This document shows, piece after piece, positions 7,550 through 25,953 of a stretch of 52,509 nt of DNA; the stretch's first letter is position 1; every line of letters starts with the position of its first letter. Under the pieces are notes generated by a model. It was not told the origin of the DNA, did not search any database, and was given only the letters and a program-made list of their open reading frames with translations. A program made the position numbers and the translations under genes. Source of the stretch: Desulfovirgula sp. (GTDB taxonomy: Bacteria > Bacillota > Desulfotomaculia > Desulfotomaculales > Desulfocucumaceae); NCBI GenBank assembly GCA_020725625.1, contig DYET01000133.1, positions 1 to 52,509 of the forward strand, written 5' to 3'.

Positions 7550-8107
7550 CTATGGCCTTATGATTGCCCTTTGCATCCGGGCGTCCATTCCGTTATATAT
7601 TTGCTCCAACTCGGCATATACGCTTTCAGGGTCCCCCGGACTGTCAAACGGCAGGTGCCACGCTTTCCAGGATTCATTGAGGACTGCGACCGGTACCGGT
7701 ATCATATCGCACCCGTGCCTGTTCTCAGCAATAACAATGATACTGGTGGTATCATCATAAGATGGGTCGATGTATACTGAAAACTGTAATCGGGGGTATT
7801 TTGCCTCAATCAGATTTACGATTGGCCTGTAAAAATGGTAGAACTTGGACCATACACCCCTTTTGATGTCTTCATCGTCAAAGAAAGCACCGTTTATACT
7901 GGTGCAGCCGCCGGGTTCGGAAAGGAATTCCATGTGGTAGGCATAGAAAGCCTCTACCAATTCCTTTGGAACAGTAAAGGCGTGCACAGCCGGCTTGAGA
8001 TTATCCACCTCGCTGTCTTCAAGAAATTCCACCTTTTTACCGCACTCTTTCATCAGTTCCAGCTGGGCCAGGAAGATCTCCCTCCCCGGATTTCGTTTTC
8101 CATTCAC
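7550..8107 (-). CDS. Unknown protein, about 185 residues
   Basis: I do not recognise it. It is a soluble, acidic/aromatic protein with no membrane segment, containing HAFTVPKELVEAFYAYHMEF in the first third and AVLNESWKAWHLPFDSPGDP near the end. GTG 8107 has GCGGTGAT at five bases; an ATG at 8053 is an alternative that would shorten the 71-base overlap with the gene upstream. It is the last of four unknown genes with similar lengths and spacing, probably one transcript. Confidence 0.6.
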   Translation of the reverse strand: MNGKRNPGREIFLAQLELMKECGKKVEFLEDSEVDNLKPAVHAFTVPKELVEAFYAYHMEFLSEPGGCTSINGAFFDDEDIKRGVWSKFYHFYRPIVNLIEAKYPRLQFSVYIDPSYDDTTSIIVIAENRHGCDMIPVPVAVLNESWKAWHLPFDSPGDPESVYAELEQIYNGMDARMQRAIIRP

Positions 8108-8678
8108 TATCAATCACCGCCAGCCCCGTCAAATCAGGGGACGGGCCGGCGATTTCACCTCCTTGCGGACAAACCATCTCCCTGAACACCCTGCGTTTTT
8201 TAACCACCGTATAACTCTCTTCCGCTATTTCCAGCCCGCAGTAATATTTCAGGACACCGACCATATCGTCGAACAGCCGGTCAAATCTCCTGAGAGTGAG
8301 AAAAATCTCTTTGACCTCTGCGTGGGACATTTCCAACAGATCCTCTTCACTCCTGACAGGAAAGCCGTCCTTTATGTGACTGTTCCGGCGGCTCTCCATG
8401 ACTATGTATCCGCCACTTCGGCCGTTTGTGTACACACCTATTCCGGTCTCGCCTTTGAATTCATTAATAAGTAGTCGCAGGTCCTCCCAGAGATCCTGGC
8501 TGAGGTTTTCATCACATATAATCTCGAAGGCCCTGTCCAGTTCCCCACTTGTCAGGGGCAGCCTGTGAATTTTTATGCACCGGCTGTAACCGATCAGGCC
8601 GTTCCAGCTGTTCATGGTCCAGTACGTTTCATGTCCGGTAATGTAGGCGATCATTTCCCTCTTTGTTTTTCTCGGCAT
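8037..8678 (-). CDS. Unknown protein, 213 residues, with hairpin-separated ribosome site
   Basis: I do not recognise the family. It contains MIAYITGHETYWTMNSWNGL near the start, GYIVMESRRNSHIKDGFPVR in the middle, and a cluster of charged helices (HAEVKEIFLTLRRFDRLFDD). The last 25 residues look less constrained and overlap the next gene. The ATG at 8678 has no Shine-Dalgarno in the usual position; GAAAGGAGG lies at 8715-8723, and a 7-bp-stem hairpin (8685-8707) fills the gap. The same arrangement is seen at three other genes here. Confidence 0.65.
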   Translation of the reverse strand: MPRKTKREMIAYITGHETYWTMNSWNGLIGYSRCIKIHRLPLTSGELDRAFEIICDENLSQDLWEDLRLLINEFKGETGIGVYTNGRSGGYIVMESRRNSHIKDGFPVRSEEDLLEMSHAEVKEIFLTLRRFDRLFDDMVGVLKYYCGLEIAEESYTVVKKRRVFREMVCPQGGEIAGPSPDLTGLAVIDSEWKTKSGEGDLPGPAGTDERVR

Positions 8679-8723
8679 AAATAAGGGGCGGTTGCCGGCG
8701 CCGCCCCACTTTTCCCTCCTTTC
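8679..8723 (-). promoter_or_regulatory. Shine-Dalgarno / hairpin / start module
   Basis: On the minus strand: GAAAGGAGG (8723-8715), seven bases, a hairpin with stem GGGGCGG and CCGCCCC (8707-8685), six bases, then ATG. Linear distance from the Shine-Dalgarno to ATG is 36 bases. With the hairpin folded, 13 unpaired bases remain. Confidence 0.65.
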
Positions 8724-8759
8724 GGATTTAAGGGCGGGCCGGACCGTCCGGTTAACATC

Positions 8760-9287
8760 TCAACCTTTAACAATCCGTCCATTTTCCTGCCACGGAGATA
8801 TTTTAAACTCACTCCCGGCGGCCAGAAGTGCAGAGATCTTGAAGGCCTCATCCGATACGCTCTGTAATACATCAATGACCTGGTTCAACGTTCTGACCTG
8901 CGGGAGTTTAACGGAGTATTTCCTGAAGGTCAAATTGGCCTGCCGGTAATCAAAAACATCGACGTAAACATTTAACCCTATAAACATGGTGTTTTCATCG
9001 TCGTAGTCAATCTCCGCATCCATGGGCGTCGGTAATAAATCATCACAGGGAAAGTGAATCAATAAAGAACCAAAGAGGTTTTTTAGAGAGGCCTCGCCGA
9101 AATGATCGAAGTTAAACTCAGCCTTAAGGTAAGACCCAAGGGATTTCACATCTTCGACTCCAATGGCGCGCATCTCTTCAATGTCCCTGGTTATTTCACG
9201 TCCGTTATCCGACTCAAAAATATTCAGGACGGCAAGCAGAACAGAGTGTTTAACTGATATACCGGCCTCTATCGCTTTCTTTGCCAT
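8760..9287 (-). CDS. Unknown protein, about 175 residues, with hairpin-separated ribosome site
   Basis: I do not recognise it. It begins MAKKAIEAGISVKHSVLLAV, has helical segments, an acidic strand-rich middle (MDAEIDYDDENTMFIGLNVY) and a C-terminal helix EAFKISALLAAG. No membrane segment or catalytic motif stands out. The frame runs on to 9314, but ATG 9287 is placed directly after the hairpin, with GAAAGGAGG at 9323-9331 beyond it. That fits the module seen at three sibling genes. The gene lies in the same run as 8037-8678 and 9372-10012. Confidence 0.65.
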   Translation of the reverse strand: MAKKAIEAGISVKHSVLLAVLNIFESDNGREITRDIEEMRAIGVEDVKSLGSYLKAEFNFDHFGEASLKNLFGSLLIHFPCDDLLPTPMDAEIDYDDENTMFIGLNVYVDVFDYRQANLTFRKYSVKLPQVRTLNQVIDVLQSVSDEAFKISALLAAGSEFKISPWQENGRIVKG

Positions 9288-9331
9288 TGATTGGGGGCGG
9301 GCCGGTGGGCCCACCCCCTTTACCTCCTTTC
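9288..9331 (-). promoter_or_regulatory. Shine-Dalgarno / hairpin / start module
   Basis: GAAAGGAGG (9331-9323), four bases TAAA, a 26-base hairpin with 10-bp stem (9318-9293; GGGGGTGGGC with GCCCGCCCCC, one U-G pair), five bases, then ATG 9287. With the hairpin folded, nine bases separate the Shine-Dalgarno from ATG. Confidence 0.75.
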
Positions 9332-9371
9332 ATCGGTAAGTAGGTGGGCAGTCCGCCCCGGCCATATTTTC

Positions 9372-10012
9372 TTAAGAAGCTGGTTTCTTATTCTTATCTT
9401 TAACCGGAGAAATCACTTTTTCACTGCCAAATACCGACTCCAGCTTCCGGATCATGTCTCCAATCATGGAGTTCCACTCCGCCACTTCCCGGACGAGGGC
9501 TTCGTAGTCCCAGTTATCCCAGAAGTGACCCTCATCGCTTACCCGTTTCAGTATGCCGATCTTGTCCGCCTCTTTCAGAAGGGTGCAGACCGACACGTGG
9601 CACCTGAGGAAATGTTCCGCTGATATGTTGCTGGCGTACTGGGTCTTGCAGAAAGAACCCCATCTCCACCCGCCTCCAATCCCCGTCTGGATCTTCCGGC
9701 CCATCTGGCCAGGCCGAAGTTTGCTTCCTCGCAATTTTCACCCGGCCACACCGAAAAGAAGTAGACTTCCTTCGGCGGCACTCCAATGTACACGTTTTCC
9801 ACCTGAACGTGGGTGTTCGCCTGGATAAGGGCCCAGGTGTGCTCATCTTTGCATTTTCTTGACAGGTAATTGGCCATCTGACCTTTAAAGTGAAACACCT
9901 GTGATGAAACTTCCTCAACGGGCATGTCGAGGGCCTTCTGCCGCAGTTTCTCAAGAACTTCTTCCGGCGAATTCCCGCCGTAACCCAATTCATAATGTAT
10001 GGTCAATCCCAT
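9372..10012 (-). pseudogene. Unknown conserved protein, split by one frameshift
   Basis: The N-terminal part (9700-10012) begins MGLTIHYELGYGG and runs to FSVWPGENCEEANFGLARW. The C-terminal part (9372 to about 9715) is in another frame and reads GGGWRWGSFCKTQYASN, then FLRCHVSVCTLLKEADKIGI and WDNWDYEALVREVAEWN. The two join naturally near 9700-9720 if one base is restored, giving about 213 residues. I believe homologues in related bacteria carry both halves in one frame, but I cannot check this. No slippery heptamer is visible, so a true mutation or sequencing error is likelier than programmed shifting. ATG 10012 is preceded by the hairpin-type ribosome site. Confidence 0.65.
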
Positions 10013-10058
10013 GTATTCCGGGGCAAACCCAGCCGGTCCGCCCCATTTCCCCCCTTCT
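10013..10058 (-). promoter_or_regulatory. Shine-Dalgarno / hairpin / start module
   Basis: AGAAGGGGGG (10058-10049), four bases, a 25-base hairpin with 10-bp stem (10044-10020; GGGGCGGACC with GGTTTGCCCC, two G-U pairs), seven bases, then ATG 10012. The stem differs in sequence from the other modules but still pairs. Confidence 0.7.
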
Positions 10059-10241
10059 GGTTAAAATGGTTTGGACAGCTGAGAGCCCAGGATGTATCAT
10101 ATTTCAGGCTTACCGCGGCAACCGCTCTTTTTTCTTCTTCCGAGTCCCGGAGCGGGCCAACCTGCCTTTTCCAGGTTCTTACTCAACCTGATACATTTAC
10201 TTTATAGGCCGGAAAATGATGGGTCGAAAGGACCTGAAATT

Positions 10242-11516
10242 CTATCCGGCCATTTTCGCCGGCATGGCGTCGCCACGCCGGCGGCGCCCGAAGACAGCAA
10301 TATTCTCATATTCAACATCCTCACTACCGCTGGTCATGCCCCGGCGTTTCCGCCCGTCAACTGCCGGCTGATGGTCAACATCCAAATTCACACCGCCGCG
10401 TCCAGTCCTGGGCCTGTGTCCCAGGGACAGGAGAACCTGCCTGTTTTCCTCGGCGATCTTCTGCAGCACCCCCACAATCTCTTCCTCATCGCGGTCACCG
10501 GATCCCCTGTCCAGTATTTCCGAGAGTTCTCCCAGCTGCCTGATGACCTCACGGTCCTCCATGAAATTGAGCTGCTGCACCTTATGAGTGAGCTGGCGCA
10601 GCGACATCACGCTGGGCCCGGGCAGGTGCCCGTGCTTTTGGACATTGTCCCTGGCCGCCGACACGGCCTCGTAGATCATTGAGCGAAGCTGGGCGGCCAG
10701 GTCGGAAATGAAGCCCTGCACCTGACGGTGGTAAGTCTGCCTGATCTCGTCCGCCACGGCTTTTTCGGCGCTGGCCGCAACCTTCGAGGCCATGCGTGCC
10801 TCCATCTCGGCCATGGTGGAGGTAACCGGCACGAAGCTGAGGTCGATTTCAAACCTGCAGGATTCCCCGATCTCCTCCCTGCCTGGAAACCTGGACATGA
10901 CCCTGAAAATGAAGTTCTCCACAAAGTCCTCCGGCACACTGGCGCCGGGGTCTTTCTGAAGGGTGCGGTAAACCTCCCGGGCGGCTTCACGGTACTTGGT
11001 CTCAGTGGAAAAGCGGATGCTGTCGTAATTATCCAGGATCCGTTCGTTAAGCCTCCGGTATTCTTCGCCCATTTCCTCCAGCCTGCGGCGCAGTTCGCTG
11101 TATACCTGGTAGGGCACAAACCGCCCCCATACCGTCTGAAAGCTGGATTCCCGCAACAGTCTCCTGGCGTTGGTCTCAACGGCGTCAAGGTTTCTCAGGT
11201 ATCTGACCGGTATCAGCCGGCGGCGCCCCAGCCTGACGTATTCATCCAGGAATTCACGGTAGCCTGGATCACTGGCCTTGATGCCCAGGTCCTCGGCGTC
11301 AAGCCGCAACTCGAAGCGCTCCCGGGCAATTTTCAGTTCCACCAGCACTCCCTTTCTGGCCAGTCCGGTGGCGGTGGCGTCCAGGCGAACGCGGATGTCC
11401 TCCGGGCCACAGCCCAGCCTGGCAGCAATCTCGTTTTTCTGCTCGATAATGTTCCTGTCATTTTCCTCCCGGGTAATGTTATCAAGCAATTCTTTCAATG
11501 TATCCTTTATTTCCAT
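10242..11516 (-). CDS. DUF3150-like protein partnered with AAA ATPase
   Basis: A soluble protein of 424 residues, mostly helical and charged. The stretch RRLIPVRYLRNLDAVETNAR followed by VWGRFVPYQVYSELRRRLEE and a helix ending NYDSI resembles the core of DUF3150, a family found beside AAA ATPases in plasmids, phages and islands. The C-terminal 60 residues are basic and low-complexity. ATG 11516 has GGAGG at nine bases. It lies 57 bases after the AAA gene, separated by a 10-bp hairpin. Likely role: substrate or adaptor of the ATPase (inference). The 230 bases downstream of it hold no gene. Confidence 0.6.
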   Translation of the reverse strand: MEIKDTLKELLDNITREENDRNIIEQKNEIAARLGCGPEDIRVRLDATATGLARKGVLVELKIARERFELRLDAEDLGIKASDPGYREFLDEYVRLGRRRLIPVRYLRNLDAVETNARRLLRESSFQTVWGRFVPYQVYSELRRRLEEMGEEYRRLNERILDNYDSIRFSTETKYREAAREVYRTLQKDPGASVPEDFVENFIFRVMSRFPGREEIGESCRFEIDLSFVPVTSTMAEMEARMASKVAASAEKAVADEIRQTYHRQVQGFISDLAAQLRSMIYEAVSAARDNVQKHGHLPGPSVMSLRQLTHKVQQLNFMEDREVIRQLGELSEILDRGSGDRDEEEIVGVLQKIAEENRQVLLSLGHRPRTGRGGVNLDVDHQPAVDGRKRRGMTSGSEDVEYENIAVFGRRRRGDAMPAKMAG

Positions 11517-11536
11517 ATGTTAAAACCTCCATTTTG

Positions 11537-11562
11537 GGCCGGGAGGAGATCACCTCCCGGCC
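11537..11562. other. 10-bp inverted repeat before a ribosome site
   Basis: GGCCGGGAGG (11537-11546) pairs perfectly with CCTCCCGGCC (11553-11562), loop of six. On the minus strand the hairpin precedes the Shine-Dalgarno GGAGG (11530-11526) of the DUF3150-like gene. Unlike the modules at 8679, 9288, 10013 and 14570, it is upstream of the ribosome site, so it may attenuate or process the transcript. Confidence 0.65.
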
Positions 11563-11572
11563 AGTATAACTT

Positions 11573-13303
11573 TTAATTTCTTCTTTTCCTGCCCTCGTTA
11601 GTGCCGCCGGTAACCACTTGCAGCTTGCGGTCGCGTTTTTCCATCACCTTCTGGCGGTAAGCCGGCGGCAGGAGATCGAGGTCGTTAGCCTCCTTCAGCG
11701 CCAGCTGGGTCATCATCTCGATGTCCCCGGTGGTCGGCCGAAAAACTTCGAGGGCGTACTGAATGTGTTCCGCCAAAACCACACCGGACCCGGCGTCCTC
11801 CGCAACATCGGCGGCTTTCAGCACCAGGGCTTCTAGCTCCGCGCCGGTGTAACCGTCGGTGGCAGTAGCGGCACGATTCAGATCTTCAGCGGACAGATCG
11901 TGGCTAATAGCATATTTCCTGAACATGACGCTGAAAATCTCGGCCCTTTCCTCCTCACCGGGCGGCAAGATGGGAATGGCCCTGTCGAACCTGCCGGGTC
12001 TTTTTAATGCCGCGTCGATCAGGTCGGGCCGGTTGGTCAGTCCGAGAAAAACCACCCTGCCCCGGTGCCTGCCGTCTGACATGAACTCCAGCAATCTCTT
12101 CAAGAGCCTGTTGGAAACCCCGGAATCACCCGAGTTATTGCGGGATAAACCGGTCTGGTCCAGTTCATCCAGCACCACCACCGTGGGAGCCAGTGCTTCA
12201 ATGCACTGGAGTGCCTTCTCCAGGTTGGCCTCCGAGGACCCTACCCACTTATTCATGATCCTGGCCAGATTCAGGGAGCAACAATTAACAGCGCTTTCCC
12301 TGGCCACCGCCTCGGCCAGTATGGTCTTGCCGATGCCGGCCGGGCCGGGCATGAGCACCCCTGTCGGACAGCGCCTCAGATTTCCCTCCCGGAGGGGCTG
12401 GATGACGTTTTTGCGGAAAAATTCCTTGACGTTTTCCATCCCCCCGACATTGCTGAAATCCAGCTCAGGGTCGATTATTTGAAGCACATCTCCGTATTCC
12501 GACGAAATGATATCCTTTTTCCGCTCCTTAACCAGTTCCGGTGTAACCGGGACATCGGCGCCGGATCGCAAAAAAATGTCCTCAACATGTAACTTCTTCA
12601 ACCCGGCGGTCAGCCTGGCCATTTGCGTAACAGTGATATCCCGCATGTTTGATCTGCCGTCTATGGCGTATTTCCCGGCCAGGGCCTCGATGTACTTCTG
12701 ACGGTCCTCAAGATCCGGCAGCGGCACCTGAACCGCCTCAATCCGGCTGCTGGCTGAACGCAGCGCCCGGTTGACGTCGGAAAGGTTTTCGGCCACCAGG
12801 AAAACCGGGGAACCCAGATCAGCAATCTGCCTGTCCCTGGCCCACCGCAAAAGGGTGGTGAGGACGGTCCTGTCCCCCGGGGGCATCTGGGCCAGCTCGG
12901 CTGCCGGGACCAGCGTCTCCGCGTAGTCCATGATCACCGCCGTCTTGGCCCTGAATCCCCCGTTTCCGTCCGGCATGGACAGGCGCAGCGCCCCTTCCAT
13001 CAGCATCAGGGCGGCCACCGGATCCCTCGGGATGATATCGTCAACCCCCATCGATCCGGTGTCTGCAGCCGTAAACCCCAGGTCCTCCAGGAGAACCTTT
13101 TTATGCGAGGGGATCGGGAACGTTATCCCGGCCGAACGGTTGTAGCACATGATTATTTCCCGCTCCGACACCAGCGGCGACTGCATCAGGAACTCAAGCA
13201 CCGATGAATTGCCGTCAACGGTATCCCAGACGTTAAAGTGCAAAAGGAACATGTGGGCGATTGAAGCGCTCCACTTCCTGTGAATTTCCTCGATCCAGTG
13301 CAA
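11573..13303 (-). CDS. AAA+ ATPase, Ycf46/FtsH-like, with degenerate N-terminal AAA-like domain
   Basis: About 576 residues. Residues 1-255 resemble an inactive AAA-like module (a conserved ALMLMEGALRL...VIMDYAETLVP core without a P-loop). Residues 285-560 form a complete AAA module: VGGMENVKEF, Walker A GPAGIGKT (320-327), Walker B VVVLDELDQ (375-383) and the arginine-finger stretch LKRPGRFDRA. This two-part layout is that of Ycf46-type ATPases, and the DUF1257 (Ycf35-like) and DUF2997 genes immediately upstream support that. I chose TTG 13303, which follows GGAGGGTTTGCA; the frame extends to 13378. The function of this cluster is not known to me. Confidence 0.8.
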   Translation of the reverse strand: MHWIEEIHRKWSASIAHMFLLHFNVWDTVDGNSSVLEFLMQSPLVSEREIIMCYNRSAGITFPIPSHKKVLLEDLGFTAADTGSMGVDDIIPRDPVAALMLMEGALRLSMPDGNGGFRAKTAVIMDYAETLVPAAELAQMPPGDRTVLTTLLRWARDRQIADLGSPVFLVAENLSDVNRALRSASSRIEAVQVPLPDLEDRQKYIEALAGKYAIDGRSNMRDITVTQMARLTAGLKKLHVEDIFLRSGADVPVTPELVKERKKDIISSEYGDVLQIIDPELDFSNVGGMENVKEFFRKNVIQPLREGNLRRCPTGVLMPGPAGIGKTILAEAVARESAVNCCSLNLARIMNKWVGSSEANLEKALQCIEALAPTVVVLDELDQTGLSRNNSGDSGVSNRLLKRLLEFMSDGRHRGRVVFLGLTNRPDLIDAALKRPGRFDRAIPILPPGEEERAEIFSVMFRKYAISHDLSAEDLNRAATATDGYTGAELEALVLKAADVAEDAGSGVVLAEHIQYALEVFRPTTGDIEMMTQLALKEANDLDLLPPAYRQKVMEKRDRKLQVVTGGTNEGRKRRN

Positions 13304-13328
13304 TGCAAACCCTCCAGATATATAATTT

Positions 13329-13508
13329 TTACCCGCACCACCTGTTGGTGTTGAGGCAGGATGCGCACTGCGGCGCACCCTGCTTTCCGCACAACAGGCA
13401 GAGCATTTCTGCCAGTTCCGGTGTCCACCAGTAGGCCTCGACGGTTCCGTCGGGGCGGATAATTATATCCACCTCACGGTTAGCAGCGATTTCTTTCAAA
13501 AGTTTCAC
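13329..13508 (-). CDS. Small protein with RPDG strand and zinc knuckle
   Basis: Sixty residues from GTG 13508 (GAGGTG at seven bases). After EIAANREVDIIIRPDGTVEA comes a C-terminal zinc-knuckle-like pattern CLLCGKQGAPQCASC. The IIIRPDGTVEA strand echoes the ITVRPDGSVQIEA strand of the DUF2997 protein encoded just upstream, so it may be a shortened relative. The frame extends to 13538 without a ribosome site. It sits between DUF2997 and the AAA ATPase, on one transcript. Confidence 0.6.
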   Translation of the reverse strand: MKLLKEIAANREVDIIIRPDGTVEAYWWTPELAEMLCLLCGKQGAPQCASCLNTNRWCG

Positions 13509-13698
13509 CGCTGCCCACCTCACCCGCGTCAGCCTCATGTACGATAACCGGCTTATATTTCCTCCCGGTTACAGCACCGAGGGATTGTTCGAAGTCTTGC
13601 GTCGCCCTGAGGCATTCCCTGCCCGCAAAGCCCGCCGCCTCAATCTGAACCGATCCGTCGGGCCTTACAGTAATCACGATCTCTCTGGTCATTGTCAC
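13480..13698 (-). CDS. DUF2997 protein
   Basis: Seventy-two residues beginning MTMTREIVITVRPDGSVQIE, then GFAGRECLRATQDFEQSLGA and a basic KYKP stretch. This is the DUF2997 pattern, a small family seen with DUF1257 and AAA ATPase genes in cyanobacteria, phages and mobile elements. The GTG start overlaps the TGA of the DUF1257 gene (GTGA), with AAAGGAG upstream, so the genes are translationally coupled. ATG 13692 is an alternative start. The last 15 residues overlap the following gene. Confidence 0.75.
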   Translation of the reverse strand: MTMTREIVITVRPDGSVQIEAAGFAGRECLRATQDFEQSLGAVTGRKYKPVIVHEADAGEVGSGETFERNRC

Positions 13699-14093
13699 GC
13701 CGCTCCTTTCACCCGAAGCCTGATGGATCCATCCTCCAGGGTCTCTTCGGTAATGGTGGCCTTGAGCGCACGTGCCTGGCGCCTGGCCATGGCAACCGCG
13801 TATCTCTGCTTCAGGAGGCCAAATTCTGGTCCGACCACCTTCTCCACGTAGCCCATGTACCAGTCGGTGGTGAGGCTGATACAGCCGTCCTCCCCCTCAT
13901 TTGCCGCTATGTCGTAGGGGGACTCCGGCGGTATGATCACCATCAGCGCGTGAAGGCTCTGGTAGTGACCCCTGGCTTCGGCATTGCGGGCCACCCCGCA
14001 GCCCAGCGACCGGGCGGCCTCCTCAAGCACCGATATATCCCGTATATTCGTTTGTACAGATGTCCAGTGGGACATGTATTTCTCCTCCTTCAC
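13695..14093 (-). CDS. DUF1257 (Ycf35-like) protein
   Basis: A protein of 132 residues beginning MSHWTSVQTNIRDISVLEEA, then a variable strand region with DWYMGYVEKVVGPEFGLLKQ and RYAVAMARRQARALKA, and a C-terminal strand GSIRLRVKG. This is the DUF1257 layout, known as Ycf35 in plastids and cyanobacteria and of unknown function. AAGGAGGAG gives a standard ribosome site at six bases. It overlaps the DUF2997 start by four bases. Together with the AAA ATPase it forms a recurrent, uncharacterised gene set. Confidence 0.85.
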   Translation of the reverse strand: MKEEKYMSHWTSVQTNIRDISVLEEAARSLGCGVARNAEARGHYQSLHALMVIIPPESPYDIAANEGEDGCISLTTDWYMGYVEKVVGPEFGLLKQRYAVAMARRQARALKATITEETLEDGSIRLRVKGAA

Positions 14094-14098
14094 AAGAC

Positions 14099-14126
14099 AG
14101 AATCAGCTGATGTAAAGGCTGATTCT
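14099..14126. other. 9-bp inverted repeat between radC and DUF1257 genes
   Basis: AGAATCAGC (14099-14107) pairs perfectly with GCTGATTCT (14118-14126), loop of ten. On the transcript it lies between the radC stop and the Shine-Dalgarno of the DUF1257 gene. Confidence 0.5.
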
Positions 14127-14569
14127 TATAGTATTCCGGCGTTTTTCATGCTCCTGAACCTGCCGCTGCCGACGACGATATGATCGAGGACCTGGACGCC
14201 CAGGATATTACCCGCGTCCACCAGCTTCCTGGTAATTTCAATGTCCTCCCTGCTCGGCTGGACATCATTTGAGGGGTGGTTATGCGCCAGTATAAGGCTT
14301 GCGGCGTTTACCAGCACGGCAGCCTTGAACACCTCGCGGGGATGTACCAGGCTTGAATTCAAGGTCCCCACGCTTACCGTGTGGATGGCCGTGGGTTCGT
14401 TCTTCGTGTTCAGGTAAATAACCGTGAACATTTCCCGGTCGGCATCCTCCAGGAAGCTCCTGATCAGTTCGAAGGCATCCTCCGGAACCTGGATTTTCCT
14501 TGGCTTGTAGAGCAGTGAGGACTCCCTCACCACTTTTAAGGTGATGATGTCAACTTTTTTAGCCCTCAT
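14126..14569 (-). CDS. radC: RadC-type JAB/MPN-domain protein
   Basis: The 147-residue protein covers only the C-terminal JAB domain of RadC, without the helix-hairpin-helix N-terminus, as is usual for plasmid and phage versions. Residues of the metal site are present: an early glutamate in FELIRSFLED, the HNHPSND motif (normally HNHPSG), and the closing LDHIVVG. RadC-like proteins are found in mobile elements and defence islands; their activity is not settled. ATG 14569 has no adjacent Shine-Dalgarno; GAAAGGAGG lies at 14603-14611 behind a perfect 10-bp hairpin. Confidence 0.88.
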   Translation of the reverse strand: MRAKKVDIITLKVVRESSLLYKPRKIQVPEDAFELIRSFLEDADREMFTVIYLNTKNEPTAIHTVSVGTLNSSLVHPREVFKAAVLVNAASLILAHNHPSNDVQPSREDIEITRKLVDAGNILGVQVLDHIVVGSGRFRSMKNAGIL

Positions 14570-14611
14570 AAGTACGGGGCGGGCCCTCCCGGCCCGCCCC
14601 TTCCTCCTTTC
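14570..14611 (-). promoter_or_regulatory. Shine-Dalgarno / hairpin / start module (clearest copy)
   Basis: GAAAGGAGG (14611-14603), two bases AA, a 25-base hairpin whose 10-bp stem is perfect (GGGGCGGGCC with GGCCCGCCCC, loop GGGAG; 14600-14576), six bases GTACTT, then ATG 14569. With the stem folded the Shine-Dalgarno would be eight bases from ATG, the optimal spacing. Bases 14612-14740 beyond it contain no gene. Confidence 0.78.
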
Positions 14612-14740
14612 ATAGAGTACTCGGGCAGGCCGGTAAGGCCTTTTCTGTTATCCCATACAGCGGTCATCTTCCGGTTCTGGGAAAAATAAAAGACGGTCCT
14701 CCATTATGGAAACCGCCTTTAATATCTCCCGGGTAGGGCT

Positions 14741-18995: not shown

Positions 18996-19781
18996 TTAGG
19001 CCATGGTGCCGCGCAGCCTCAGGCTCAGCTTTTTCTTTTCCCTGCTGAAGCTGGCCACCATGCAGGTAACCCGGTCGCCCCTGTCCAGGCTCCCCCTTAA
19101 AGGGGGCGGCGCCAGGCCCACCAGTCCGGGAACAGCCAGCATTTCAATCATTACAAATCTTGCGTTGGCATGGGTAACCACCCCGGCCACGCAGTCCCCC
19201 CGCCGGAACTCGGGCGCCCTTTCCCACGGGTCGGCACCGTCAACCATGGATACGGAAATAATGTCATTCTCCTGGTCCAGGGCGTTTACCTTAACGCTCA
19301 CCTGGCGGCCCGGCTCGAAAAGATCGTTCAGCCTGAAGGCCTTTCTCCTGGTGGCGGCTGCCCGCGGCACCTCCACCAGGACCCCGCCCCCTATATCCAC
19401 CATGATCTGTTTGGGAGTCACCACCCTGACAACCGCGTCCACATCCTGGCCCACCTTCAGGTACCTGAACAGCTTCTCCCTGGAGTCGGCCACCGCCTCC
19501 AGCCGGCTGCAGGCCGCAATGCCGGCGTTTTTGTCAATACCCCGGATCTTGACGAGGACCTTCTGCCCCGTGAATTTCTTCATCAGGGTCAAATTATCCA
19601 GTCCGGTTTGGTCCATCGGCACCTGCCCCCTGGCCACCTCCAGGTCCAGCTCCCAGACGGGTGAGTCATTCTCCCAGGTTACCCGCGTAATCCTGGCCTC
19701 AATGGGATACCCCTTCTGCATGGCGTCGTACAGCCTGTCCCACGATCCACCCCGGTACTCCAGTCCCTCCGGTCTGAGCAT
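18996..19781 (-). CDS. Protein with repeated S1/OB-fold RNA-binding domains
   Basis: 261 residues with about three S1-like units. Typical S1 strands are PIEARITRVTWENDSPVWEL, VGQDVDAVVRVVTPKQIMVD followed by IGGGVLVEVPRAA, and PGRQVSVKVNALDQENDIIS; a final unit ends REKKKLSLRLRG. It probably binds single-stranded RNA or DNA. GGAGGGTTGTAAAG precedes ATG 19781. The neighbours (initiator side, coupling protein side) suggest a role in element replication or regulation. No catalytic domain is present. Confidence 0.75.
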   Translation of the reverse strand: MLRPEGLEYRGGSWDRLYDAMQKGYPIEARITRVTWENDSPVWELDLEVARGQVPMDQTGLDNLTLMKKFTGQKVLVKIRGIDKNAGIAACSRLEAVADSREKLFRYLKVGQDVDAVVRVVTPKQIMVDIGGGVLVEVPRAAATRRKAFRLNDLFEPGRQVSVKVNALDQENDIISVSMVDGADPWERAPEFRRGDCVAGVVTHANARFVMIEMLAVPGLVGLAPPPLRGSLDRGDRVTCMVASFSREKKKLSLRLRGTMA

Positions 19782-20437: not shown

Positions 20438-22423
20438 TTACGACTGATTGAATAGTTCCAGCACGTCCACATCTCCGGCCGGTTCACTGTGTCTTGGTCT
20501 TGGCTGCCTTCGTTTCGGCTCGGCCTGGTCACGGTCCATTTCCGGAATGGGGGGGGTGGGTACCCCGGTGGAAACCTGCGGCGCAAAGTCGGCCACCGTT
20601 CTGGGCTCCCGGCTCAGTTCCTGAAACTCCTTCATTTCCGAAAATGCCAGGGTGTGCAGGTACAGGGGCCGGCACGTGGGTATCCTGGCCACCGCCTGGA
20701 AAAAGGGCATCTCCAGGAACTGCCAGTCATCCATCAGGGGCATGTCCTTAACCGACTCGGACCTTTTTGTCATTTCAAAGGCCGATTTGAGGGGCATTGT
20801 AATGTCCCTGCGCTCGGATATGTCCCTCACCCTGGCCCTGCCCAGCATGCCGGCGAAGTACCGGGCCGTCCTCATGTCGTTGACCCTTAAGGCAATCCTG
20901 ACGTCCATGTTGCCCAGTATGGTCTCGGCGTCGGCGGCGCCGTAAAGGCTGCCCAGCTGTGTGAGGGACTGCAGTATGCAGACGTAGTTGATCCCCAGAC
21001 CCCGGTCGAAGGACACGCGCTGATTGAAGTCCGGAATCCGGCCGATATTGGCGACTTCGTCGAGCAAAAAACGGCACGGGATGGGCAGCCGGTTGTGGTT
21101 GACCTCGGCGAAGTCCACCAGGCGCTTGAACAGAAGGAAATAGAACGCCGTCAGCAGTGGCCTGAGGTCGCCCTGGGTGGGCAGGATGACGAACAGGGCG
21201 GTTTTCTCCCGGGCGATACTGACCAGGTCGATGTCATGCCCTGCCGTAACCGCGGCCAGGGGACCGTCGGTCATCACCGCCACCTTGTTGGCCACACCGG
21301 TGGCGAAGTTGTTGAACATCCCTCTGCTGGACTGCCATTTCTCGTAAAAAAAGGTGGGCAGCCGCCCCTCCCGGAACTCCCTGTCAAATTCAGCTTCCAG
21401 TGCCTCCACCGGCCAGGCCAGGAGGGACAGCACCGTTCGCATGTGCCTCCAGTTGTCAAGAAAATCCGAATTGTACCTGGTCAGGCCCACCAGGGAGGTG
21501 AAAAGATTGGACTCCCCACCGGCAAAAAAGGGATTCTCCTTCCCGGCGCAGTTGATCATGGCCTCGCAGACCCGCCGGAATTCGGCATCGTCCCGGGCCT
21601 CGCACAGCGGATTCCAGAGGTGCGATCCCTGGGCGGGGTTTTTGAAGTTCAGCACAAGCACCCTGTATCCCTGCTCTATGAGCCACTCCGCGATCCCTGG
21701 CTCGTACTCCCCCCGGGCGTTCCACTTGCCGGCCACCAGCTCGCCCTTCGGGTCGGAAATAACCATGGACCAGCCCTCGTGGGCGGCGCTGATGATGTTG
21801 GGCAGCACAAAGCCGAAGGTCTTGCCGCTGCCCGAGGTGCCGAAGGCCGCTGTGTGCGCCGCCATGCCCTTCTTGCCCACCGGTATGCGGACAATCCGGC
21901 CCTCAAGCCTGCCCAGAACGATGCCCCCGCCATACCTTCCGGGCCTGGGAGGCCCGAACTCGCACACCGGGGCGACATTCCGGTCGTCCGCCCAGCCCCC
22001 CTTTACCACCGGCCGGCCCTGAACCACCTTCACCCCGTGCTGCCGGAGCCCGGGGTCAGCGTATCTTCCGGCCGCAAGACTCATGGCCAGGCCCGCCAGC
22101 GCCCCCAGGACCAGGCCGAACCGGGCAGCCCGGTCGGCCGGGATGGCCTCCCCGGCCTTCACCCACATGACGATATTTGGCCGGACATCCCGGCCCCTGT
22201 TCCGGTCCCTGACGGTGAACGCCGCCCAGGCCCCCCAGGCCAGCGCCGCCGCCATGAGGACAACAGCCACGGCAGCGGGAGCGCCCCGCCCCGACCGGGC
22301 GCCCAGCCACCCGGCCAACAGGCTGACGGCTATTATCGGTAGCAGCATCGGAAAAAAGAATCCTGCCGCCAGCCCGGTAACAGCAAGGGCAGAAACTAGC
22401 AACAGAGTGTATCTACTGTTCAT
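20438..22423 (-). CDS. VirD4/TraG-type conjugative coupling protein (T4CP)
   Basis: About 661 residues. Three to four hydrophobic segments fill residues 1-125. The ATPase domain has Walker A GTSGSGKT (195-202), VISDPKGELVAGKW, Walker B RFLLDEVANIG (about 451-461) and a late LTQLGSLYG segment, all standard for VirD4/TraG. It would sit in the membrane as a hexamer and pass relaxase-bound DNA to a type IV secretion channel. ATG 22423 has GGGGG at eight bases; the frame extends to 22441. The C-terminal 60 residues are basic and disordered. No relaxase or VirB4 gene is visible in this window. Confidence 0.9.
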   Translation of the reverse strand: MNSRYTLLLVSALAVTGLAAGFFFPMLLPIIAVSLLAGWLGARSGRGAPAAVAVVLMAAALAWGAWAAFTVRDRNRGRDVRPNIVMWVKAGEAIPADRAARFGLVLGALAGLAMSLAAGRYADPGLRQHGVKVVQGRPVVKGGWADDRNVAPVCEFGPPRPGRYGGGIVLGRLEGRIVRIPVGKKGMAAHTAAFGTSGSGKTFGFVLPNIISAAHEGWSMVISDPKGELVAGKWNARGEYEPGIAEWLIEQGYRVLVLNFKNPAQGSHLWNPLCEARDDAEFRRVCEAMINCAGKENPFFAGGESNLFTSLVGLTRYNSDFLDNWRHMRTVLSLLAWPVEALEAEFDREFREGRLPTFFYEKWQSSRGMFNNFATGVANKVAVMTDGPLAAVTAGHDIDLVSIAREKTALFVILPTQGDLRPLLTAFYFLLFKRLVDFAEVNHNRLPIPCRFLLDEVANIGRIPDFNQRVSFDRGLGINYVCILQSLTQLGSLYGAADAETILGNMDVRIALRVNDMRTARYFAGMLGRARVRDISERRDITMPLKSAFEMTKRSESVKDMPLMDDWQFLEMPFFQAVARIPTCRPLYLHTLAFSEMKEFQELSREPRTVADFAPQVSTGVPTPPIPEMDRDQAEPKRRQPRPRHSEPAGDVDVLELFNQS

Positions 22424-22504
22424 ACAGCAGCCCCCCGTCATAAATAAAAATAACCAGATTATCCGGCCTCACCCCTCCCCCTCAAGGCAGGCAACAATAC
22501 ATTT

Positions 22505-24582: not shown

Positions 24583-25596
24583 TCAGTTTCCTGAACTGCT
24601 GACCGCCATCAGGTAACCTACGGCGTTGGCGTATATCGGGTCTTCCACCACCCTTACGCTAGGCAGTATCCCGGCCAGGACTTTCTCAAATATGAGCGCC
24701 CCGCCGCCGGCCAGCAGTACGTTTTCCAGAAAGCCCACCTTTCTCCCCCACGTGTTGGCTATACCGCGCGAGATCAGTACCCCGGCCTCCCGCACCGCCA
24801 TGCTGGCGGCGTCGCCAAGGTTGTACCCCCTGCCGTTGTACACTATCACCTGTCCAGTAAGCGCCTTCCAGGTCACCGCCGCCGACTCCGCCAGTTCAAG
24901 GGGGACGCCTGTCTGGCGCCTGAATTCCGACATGATGGATCTGGTCACCAGGTACACCCCGGAAGTCAGGCTGGTGCGGTACTCCTCGCTCAACAGAATT
25001 GGTCTCCCGCCCCTGACGTCGATCAACAGGATGTCGGTGGTGTACTCGCCTATATCCACCACCCCTGTAAGACCATCCGGAAGGCTGCCTGCGGCCATGG
25101 AGGCCAGTACCACCCCGGCTCCCTGGGGATAGACCTCGGCGCGGGTGAACGCTATAGGGCGGTCCTCCTGATCATCCACCCCGATTATTGCGGAAAGTCC
25201 CAGTAGCCTCCTCTTCAGGGCGTCCTTATCCTTCAGGTAGATCGCCAGGGGTACACCCGCGGCAAGGGTTACCTCCCCGAACCCACTGCAGTCGACAAGC
25301 AGACGGGCAGCGGTCAGGAGAAGAACGTCGTGAATATCCTGCGGCTTACGGTACGAAAGCGACATTGTGGCCAGGGGTGACTGCAAAGCCCGCTCACCCA
25401 CCAGCCAGTTCCTCCTTTCCCCGTCCGGGAACCTGATGGCAACACGGTATCCCGGACCCTCACCGGAAAAAACACCATCGAACCCCTCCTCCCGGGTTGG
25501 GGCCAGAACAGACCGGAACTGCACCCTGCGGCCATCCCCGGAAAGACCCTTGACCATACCGGAACCCACATCCACGGAGAGTATTGCCTGCAGCAT
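24583..25596 (-). CDS. ParM/StbA-like actin ATPase for DNA segregation
   Basis: About 337 residues with the three actin-fold nucleotide motifs: ILSVDVGSGMVKG (phosphate 1, residues 4-16), TGVVDIGEYTTDILLID (phosphate 2) and NVLLAGGGALIFEKVL (adenosine). Such proteins polymerise and push plasmid copies apart, together with a DNA-binding adaptor; the small proteins at 24150 and 23213 are candidates. GGAGGTGAGGAA gives a strong site for ATG 25596; the frame extends to 25644. The gene marks a plasmid-like origin for the segment. Confidence 0.82.
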   Translation of the reverse strand: MLQAILSVDVGSGMVKGLSGDGRRVQFRSVLAPTREEGFDGVFSGEGPGYRVAIRFPDGERRNWLVGERALQSPLATMSLSYRKPQDIHDVLLLTAARLLVDCSGFGEVTLAAGVPLAIYLKDKDALKRRLLGLSAIIGVDDQEDRPIAFTRAEVYPQGAGVVLASMAAGSLPDGLTGVVDIGEYTTDILLIDVRGGRPILLSEEYRTSLTSGVYLVTRSIMSEFRRQTGVPLELAESAAVTWKALTGQVIVYNGRGYNLGDAASMAVREAGVLISRGIANTWGRKVGFLENVLLAGGGALIFEKVLAGILPSVRVVEDPIYANAVGYLMAVSSSGN

Positions 25597-25953
25597 TTCC
25601 TCACCTCCAGAAAATTTGGTATCCATAAAAAAGAAGGGGGGCAAAAGTCCACCTTCCAGGGCCTGAGAAAGTTACTGACAGCAGTCTTCGATTATTCAGT
25701 CGACTAAATCGTTACGTTATCCTTTGGAATGTGCTATTAATAAAATACATTATTGATGCTTCCAATTAGATTAGTTACGGCTGCCAACGGCATGGAACCT
25801 GAATCGCTGTATTGCCCGGAGAATCTTGTGGTCTTTCCCTCGGACAGCAGGTTTAACTACTCCAAAATACATAAAAATCCTGGCAATATAATCCTGGGTT
25901 AATGTATAGCAGGGAATTAATGCTGATTGTAGTACAAAAATCTTACAGGGTGA
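25597..25953. other. AT-richer boundary interval
   Basis: No gene is seen here. The base composition and gene direction change after this point (plus-strand toxin-antitoxin pair, then surface proteins), so it is a likely edge of the plasmid-like segment. No tRNA, direct repeat or attachment site could be recognised. Confidence 0.35.

Follow-up and report, generated by a model that had tools for sequence, protein, structure and literature searches.

A portable leader unit with two competing folds, predicted to control translation initiation of accessory genes on conjugative elements of Firmicutes

Four genes of a conjugative element in Desulfovirgula sp. are preceded by leaders in which a strong Shine–Dalgarno (SD) sequence stands 33 to 36 nt from the AUG, counted from the end of the SD core, and a GC-rich hairpin of 7 to 11 bp fills the gap. 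The genes start at positions 8678, 9287, 10012 and 14569 and all four sites lie on the minus strand of the element, within positions 1 to 52,509 of contig DYET01000133.1 of assembly GCA_020725625.1 (hereafter, the window). From sequence comparisons, we consider it probable that each leader is a copy of a portable cis-acting RNA of ~80 nt controlling translation initiation of accessory genes, of establishment or antidefense type, on conjugative elements of Firmicutes. The unit is real and selected, and it combines known principles, folded-spacer initiation and alternative pairing, as a portable module. The comparisons strongly support its existence, position and spread, the conservation of two sets of pairings and the competition of these for one arm.

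Results

Four Leaders with a Hairpin between SD and AUG

Read 5' to 3', the leader of the 8678 gene (unit 1, 8676..8756, minus strand) is GAAAGGAGG-GAAAAGT-(GGGGCGG cgccggcaa CCGCCCC)-TTATTT-ATG, with 36 nt from SD core to AUG, a 7-bp stem and 13 nt left unpaired. It consists of an upstream arm B (8732-8742), the SD GAAAGGAGG (8715-8723), the 5' arm of the hairpin, C (8701-8707), the loop (8692-8700), the 3' arm D (8685-8691) and the AUG (8676-8678). The leader of the 9287 gene (unit 2, 9285..9366, minus strand), GAAAGGAGG-TAAA-(GGGGGTGGGCC cacc GGCCCGCCCCC)-AATCA-ATG, has a distance of 35 nt, an 11-bp stem with one U–G pair and 9 unpaired nt; an upstream segment pairing with the C arm (~9343-9350) and TTACC (9335-9339), which pairs with the SD-flanking GGTAA, precede the SD (9323-9331), C (9308-9318), the loop (9304-9307) and D (9293-9303). 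In the leader of the 10012 gene (unit 3, 10010..10095, minus strand), AGAAGGGGGG-AAA-(TGGGGCGGACC ggctg GGTTTGCCCCG)-GAATAC-ATG, the distance is 36 nt, and the 11-bp stem, with two G–U pairs and an A–U pair, leaves 9 nt unpaired; here the upstream segment (10073-10083) pairs with both the C arm and the loop, CCATTTT (10063-10069) pairs with AAATGG, and the SD AGAAGGGGGG (10049-10058) is followed by C (10035-10045), the loop (10030-10034) and D (10019-10029). The leader of radC, starting at 14569 (unit 4, 14567..14647, minus strand), is GAAAGGAGG-AA-(GGGGCGGGCC gggag GGCCCGCCCC)-GTACTT-ATG, with 33 nt, 10 perfect G–C pairs and 8 unpaired nt; its parts are the B arm (14623-14633), the SD GAAAGGAGG (14603-14611), C (14591-14600), the loop (14586-14590) and D (14576-14585).

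The four leaders, with 8 to 13 nt left unpaired, confirm a preliminary description of the window, which had reported a distant SD and a hairpin at the four genes and ordinary spacing at other genes of the same run. A mechanical scan of the window for an SD, a GC-rich hairpin, an ATG and an open reading frame of at least 50 aa found exactly these four sites (~76 per Mb), in comparison with at most 1, and usually 0, per shuffle in 20 block shuffles of the window. Unrelated flanks taken from other genomes, 1.32 Mb in all, had 2.3 such sites per Mb. A search of the window with the covariance model R1 described below, with filters off, gave the same four sites as the only strong matches, besides the opposite-strand shadow of one palindrome.

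The start codons after the hairpins are supported by homologues: an intact 218-aa homologue of the 10012 gene starts at exactly that Met, and RadC homologues align from residue 3-5. The arms themselves contain potential starts, including an in-frame GTG at 9314 inside the hairpin of the 9287 gene leader, at normal SD spacing, and an out-of-frame ATG inside that of the 10012 leader. Across 89 nonredundant units, the 65 such in-arm starts are split 21/22/22 over the three frames and hence are not in systematic use; with stops also scattered, we rejected an in-arm AUG or GTG as the true start or as the start of a leader peptide. An intrinsic terminator was rejected as well, the columns after D containing no U run and the AUG coming next.

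Distribution of the Unit

The radC leaders of Desulfofundulus thermosubterraneus (L005) and of a Desulfovirgula metagenome-assembled genome (L006) have the same anatomy as those in the window. Of 100 related genomes, 21 matched a loose pattern, at 45 sites in all; the reversed pattern, with ~9 matches, was about five times rarer. A structural scan of these loci provided ~70 nonredundant SD-hairpin-ATG units. The consensus of the unit reads ggGGCCnnCCGGCCC-aaACCATTycc-aGAAAGGAGG-gaa-TGGGGCGGGCC-ggaag-GGTCCGCCCCG-gaaac-ATG. The model R1 was built from 35 units using the C:D pairs only, and units 1 to 3 of the window were left out. It finds all four window sites, three of them thus outside its training set (units 1, 2 and 3 with 31.3, 35.1 and 55 bits; unit 4, in the training set, with 57.2 bits). 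Within the order, R1 gave ~120 matches in total, spread over 34 of the 113 genomes and reaching 18 copies in a single genome. When 398 genomes sampled from the phylum were searched, it also matched 16 that belong to other orders. A cultured type strain of Desulfofundulus carries several units. The start codon was ATG in 122 and GTG in 6 of 133 matches.

None of the 4,227 Rfam covariance models, that of the radC motif (RF01754) included, scored above its gathering cut-off, and plasmid and phage records gave no unit match at blastn sensitivity; a strict pattern had one match in a viral contig. The unit is not described in the searchable papers. Elsewhere in the own genome, a half unit consisting of the part from SD to ATG is found at L223:1648-1688 (G000:C2). 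Four loci (L242:16396, L244:13395, L245:3320 and L246:10370) have near-perfect hairpins of 11 to 13 bp between SD and start with no visible upstream arms; these simple folded spacers precede genes of ~230-250 aa on the same type of element.

Covariation of the Spacer Hairpin

Measured from the start of the SD, the distance to the start codon is 35 to 46 nt across the 89 nonredundant units, and folding of C:D leaves mostly 6 to 12 unpaired nt, about 8 to 10. In an alignment of 150 model matches, every one of the 11 C:D pairs has varied in both of its arms, and the double-change cells number 72 in comparison with 12.7 in shuffles. In the C:D columns, 95.4% of the cells pair, the proportion falling below 58% when the columns are slid by one to three positions. 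The 150-match alignment was fitted to C:D and hence leans toward it, but compensations are plain in the raw sequences too, such as GGGGCGGG/CCCGCCCC, GGATACGGG/CCCGTATCC, GGGTACGGG/CCCGTACCC and GGAACGGG/CCCGTTCC. The first seed pattern required GGGGCGG, and the invariance of C in A1 comes partly from that selection; the variation is seen in the model matches.

The covariation, the fixed SD–AUG placement and the presence of the unit in some 50 other genomes bear out the earlier proposal that a selected folded spacer is common to a set of genes on one element and points to a regulatory scheme. Homologues that lack the hairpin yet keep a distant SD would have contradicted it; the hairpinless radC homologues (L003, L004 and L014) have their SD at the ordinary distance.

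The preliminary description had also named a palindromic repeat, inserted at these sites. Genomes with units do contain several similar GC-rich inverted repeats, as a mobile repeat (of the type of repetitive extragenic palindromes or miniature inverted-repeat transposable elements) landing by chance between SD and AUG would produce. However, the place of the hairpin is constant relative to the SD, the AUG and the direction of reading, the SD itself is part of the unit, the stems diverge between units with compensation, and no other full unit is present in the window and only the half unit elsewhere in the own genome, which makes such insertion barely credible. An element acting at the DNA level on transferred single strands, for example an Frpo/ssi-type single-strand promoter for establishment genes, could similarly use palindromes, as these also fold in single-stranded DNA, and the targets include establishment-type genes for ArdC and RadC. 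We consider it very improbable: the SD and AUG belong to the unit at set places, the hairpins are GC-rich and 7 to 13 bp long with no AT-rich −10-like part, and C:D makes frequent use of G–U pairs (at three pairs, 24, 32 and 35 cells), which are far weaker in DNA.

A Competing Fold Upstream of the SD

In the minimum-energy folds of 140 nt around each start, the spacer hairpin was absent from three of the four leaders, and in those three the C arm paired instead with a segment upstream of the SD. Each leader has such an upstream complement of its own C arm: CCGGCCCGCCC in the 8678, TGCCCACC in the 9287, CTCAGCTGTCC in the 10012 and CCGGCCTGCCC in the 14569 leader. These complements define a leader of the order A, B, SD, C, D, in which C:D and B:C are mutually exclusive and the second fold is a competing hairpin closing over the SD. 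The hairpin of the preliminary description thus stands, but the leader is more than the folded spacer that it had proposed.

The tests of the upstream fold used no structure to find or align the units. Among the 89 nonredundant units, the pairing of the upstream part with the stretch from the SD end to the loop was stronger within a unit than between swapped units (z −13.4, in comparison with 0.2 for the reversed upstream control). The pairing reaches into the C:D loop (loop-only z −4.8), and a short helix flanking the SD, S:S', gave alone a z of 9.5 (reversed control −1.1), with compensations CCATT:AATGG, CCAAT:ATTGG, CCGTT:AACGG, CCACT:AGTGG, CCCAATCG:CGATTGGG and CTCAC:GTGAG. An upstream hairpin, A:B, had a z of −8.0. 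The pairing tests are without tree correction, for which the reversed and slid controls partly compensate. In divergent units outside the training set, the C:D model or the upstream-fold model mostly scores above a sequence-only model (at L229:5949, 43.9 and 42.9 bits for the two structure models and 18.1 bits for the sequence-only one), which is only supportive, since neither the effective number of sequences nor the mode is the same in all models.

A constitutive leader could account for part of these data. C:D would then make an always-on strong site, the upstream hairpin would serve only to shield this site from the gene before it, and the complementarity of the upstream segments would be a by-product of two similar GC-rich hairpins. 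B is indeed like D and A like C, which gives some B:C complementarity for free, the strongest covariation is that of C:D, and the related loci L242, L244, L245 and L246 do with an SD, a hairpin and a start. On the other hand, S:S' lies mostly outside both hairpins and yet covaries far beyond its control, and the upstream pairing continues into the loop of C:D. We therefore regard a constitutive leader as quite unlikely.

A Proposed Two-State Leader

In the two-state leader that we favor, the order of segments would be A, B, a short SD-flanking arm S, the SD, its partner arm S', C, D and the AUG. In the first fold, A:B and C:D would form and leave the SD free between two hairpins; C:D would shrink the SD–AUG gap to ~8-10 nt, and the 30S subunit would initiate as on the genes 25 and 38 of phage T4. 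In the second, B-S would pair with S'-C into one long hairpin, with the 3' end of the SD paired and the rest in the apical loop; the AUG would then be too far away, beyond two arms, and initiation would be off. In favor of two states, both folds covary and their computed energies are close on average (difference −1.4 ± 8.9 kcal/mol). The folds would be expected to alternate in the cell, and anything preventing the pairing of B-S would switch the genes behind the units together.

Temperature, one of the triggers suggested in the preliminary description, is improbable: both folds are GC-rich and their computed balance is nearly identical at 37 and 55 °C, and an RNA thermometer was accordingly rejected. 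Candidate triggers are a ribosome that terminates on the upstream gene at segment A, where in 45 of the 89 units the preceding gene ends, 25-65 nt ahead of the SD, or an RNA-binding protein. For the latter, the element itself encodes a candidate trans-acting factor at 18996..19781 (minus strand), a protein resembling part of ribosomal protein bS1, with S1 domains. It matches NCBIfam S1 models with E 1.7e-17, below the full-length cut-offs, and bS1 chains in the PDB with E 1.5e-8. Homologues were detected in 35 of the 113 genomes, 27 of the 34 with units and 8 of the 79 others (odds ratio 34, p 8e-13, kinship ignored). In all 27 loci compared, the gene is on the same strand and 2.3 to 14 kb upstream of the nearest unit; the genes of the homologues start from an ordinary SD and carry no unit themselves. 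Of the 8 apparent exceptions, genomes without an R1 match, most have divergent units near the bS1-like gene, with arms altered yet complementary (L243, L245, L246, L248 and L249).

This distribution, together with the bS1-type matches, would fit a regulon in which the bS1-like protein unfolds or holds the leader and so grants or denies access of the 30S subunit; Escherichia coli bS1 unfolds structured mRNAs on the 30S subunit (PMC3858243). Such a regulon is a form of the two-state leader, the probabilities of the two overlapping, and we think it somewhat unlikely as stated. A little less likely still is the fuller scheme, in which the element's own bS1-like factor, alone or on the ribosome, would flip many four-armed SD switches so that establishment and antidefense genes are translated together, for example only while a recipient lacks the factor or has newly made it.

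Several observations weigh against the two-state leader and its partner. Taken by itself, B:C stands out less from its reversed control (z −6.4 and −2.5, respectively), the signal for A:D is weak (z −2.2), and kinship among the sequences inflates the shuffle statistics. The wide spread of the energy balances means that many units may sit in one fold, and with the upstream stop in only 45 of the 89 units, coupling to the ribosome cannot be general. The bS1-like homologue was not detected in 7 unit-bearing genomes, and the gene for the neighboring TraG/VirD4 coupling protein is distributed almost identically; the linkage of the bS1-like gene may therefore reflect only the common backbone of the elements, and we treat the role of the protein as hypothetical.

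Genes behind the Units and the Element

The four genes behind the units in the window are all on the minus strand. Two have no family match, the gene at 8037..8678 (213 aa), whose homologues in G002 and G037 also carry units, and that at 8760..9287 (175 aa from the ATG), whose G002 homologues do so. The third, at 9372..10012, is frameshifted in comparison with the intact 218-aa homologue, which has its own unit: the G002 homologue (L096:528-1181) is matched in one frame over residues 1-~105 and in another over residues 112-214, with the shift near 9.70 kb, and the gene is either a pseudogene or affected by an assembly error. The fourth, at 14126..14569, encodes a RadC-family protein of 147 aa (PF04002, E 8e-43). 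Searches of Pfam, NCBIfam and PHROGs gave no match for the other three. A PemK/MazF-like toxin gene (PF02452; 14741-15151, minus strand) is immediately upstream of the radC leader.

Overall, units stand in front of genes for more than 40 protein clusters that have no sequence in common, and are thus not simply inherited along with one gene. ArdC-type antirestriction proteins account for 32 and RadC for 21 of the sampled matches, and the other families include a PD-(D/E)XK nuclease, a DUF6094 methyltransferase, RNase H and DUF6927, along with many unknowns. Among establishment genes, ArdC is a typical one, and we infer that the unknown genes with a unit are establishment genes too. The units are often consecutive, L128 having seven in ~3.2 kb. 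Matches to group II introns (RF02001, RF00029) are found near a unit cluster at L211:15062-17071 (minus strand).

The conjugative element carries genes for a VirD4/TraG-type coupling protein (20438..22441, minus strand), a secretion ATPase, an actin-like protein, an AAA+ ATPase and RadC. The actin-like protein (ALP_N/MreB-like C; 24583-25644, minus strand) may be the partition system of an element of plasmid type. The own genome also has the bS1-like and TraG genes in a second copy, 82% identical (L251, G000:C28:3967-7323), which points to a second related element; the short contig bearing this copy had no unit that could be found.

Discussion

Folded-spacer ribosome sites were previously known as single phage genes. 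Here, the design appears together with a competing fold as a reusable module before many unrelated genes, several of antidefense type, on conjugative elements. It offers a test case for the coordination of the establishment genes of an element at the level of translation, and its natural variants, well over 100 in number, can be used to study how structure between SD and AUG is handled by the 30S subunit. The proposed mechanism predicts a testable partner protein, the bS1 homologue of the element. The unit would make a new RNA family of Rfam grade and help to find establishment genes of unknown function.

The translational attenuators of ermC and cat-86 and the trp leader have four segments with mutually exclusive pairings, as the unit does. 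In contrast to them, the unit has its SD between segments 2 and 3, its 3' hairpin is a spacer rather than a sequestrator or terminator, and no conserved leader peptide was found, given the random frames of the in-arm starts and the scattered stops. The radC RNA motif (RF01754) is likewise a candidate cis-regulatory RNA before radC genes, and it also precedes other DNA-related and antirestriction genes. It differs in having 149 positions and in being listed for Proteobacteria (PMC2864571), and it had no match above cut-off in the 113 genomes or in the unit loci scanned.

In the pLS20 family of conjugative plasmids of Gram-positive bacteria, structured leaders named EGeRS1 precede several establishment operons, including ardC (PMC8708921). 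They share with the unit the common placement before establishment genes, the GC-richness and the inverted repeats, but are 400-600 bp, lie upstream of the ribosome-binding site and have an unknown mechanism (PMC8708921), whereas the unit has ~80 nt and includes the SD and AUG. In S1-dependent structured leaders and standby sites, the unfolding of a structured initiation region on the 30S subunit limits translation (PMC3858243, PMC3936740). The unit is also a structured initiation region, but its structure sets the SD–AUG distance as well, and the mobile element brings its own gene for a bS1-like protein.

A close parallel in function would be the "split" ribosome-binding sites of T4 genes 25 and 38, where a hairpin cuts the spacing from 27 to 11 nt and from 22 to 5 nt, respectively, and destabilizing mutations lower initiation (PMC3014915). 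No phage record matches the unit at blastn sensitivity, and common descent with the T4 leaders thus finds no support; the unit may work like a T4 folded-spacer region without being a member of that class. While both bring an overlong SD–AUG spacing to working distance by an intervening hairpin, the T4 sites belong to single genes in one group of phages, with no competing upstream fold described, and the unit exists in many copies before more than 40 families on conjugative elements.

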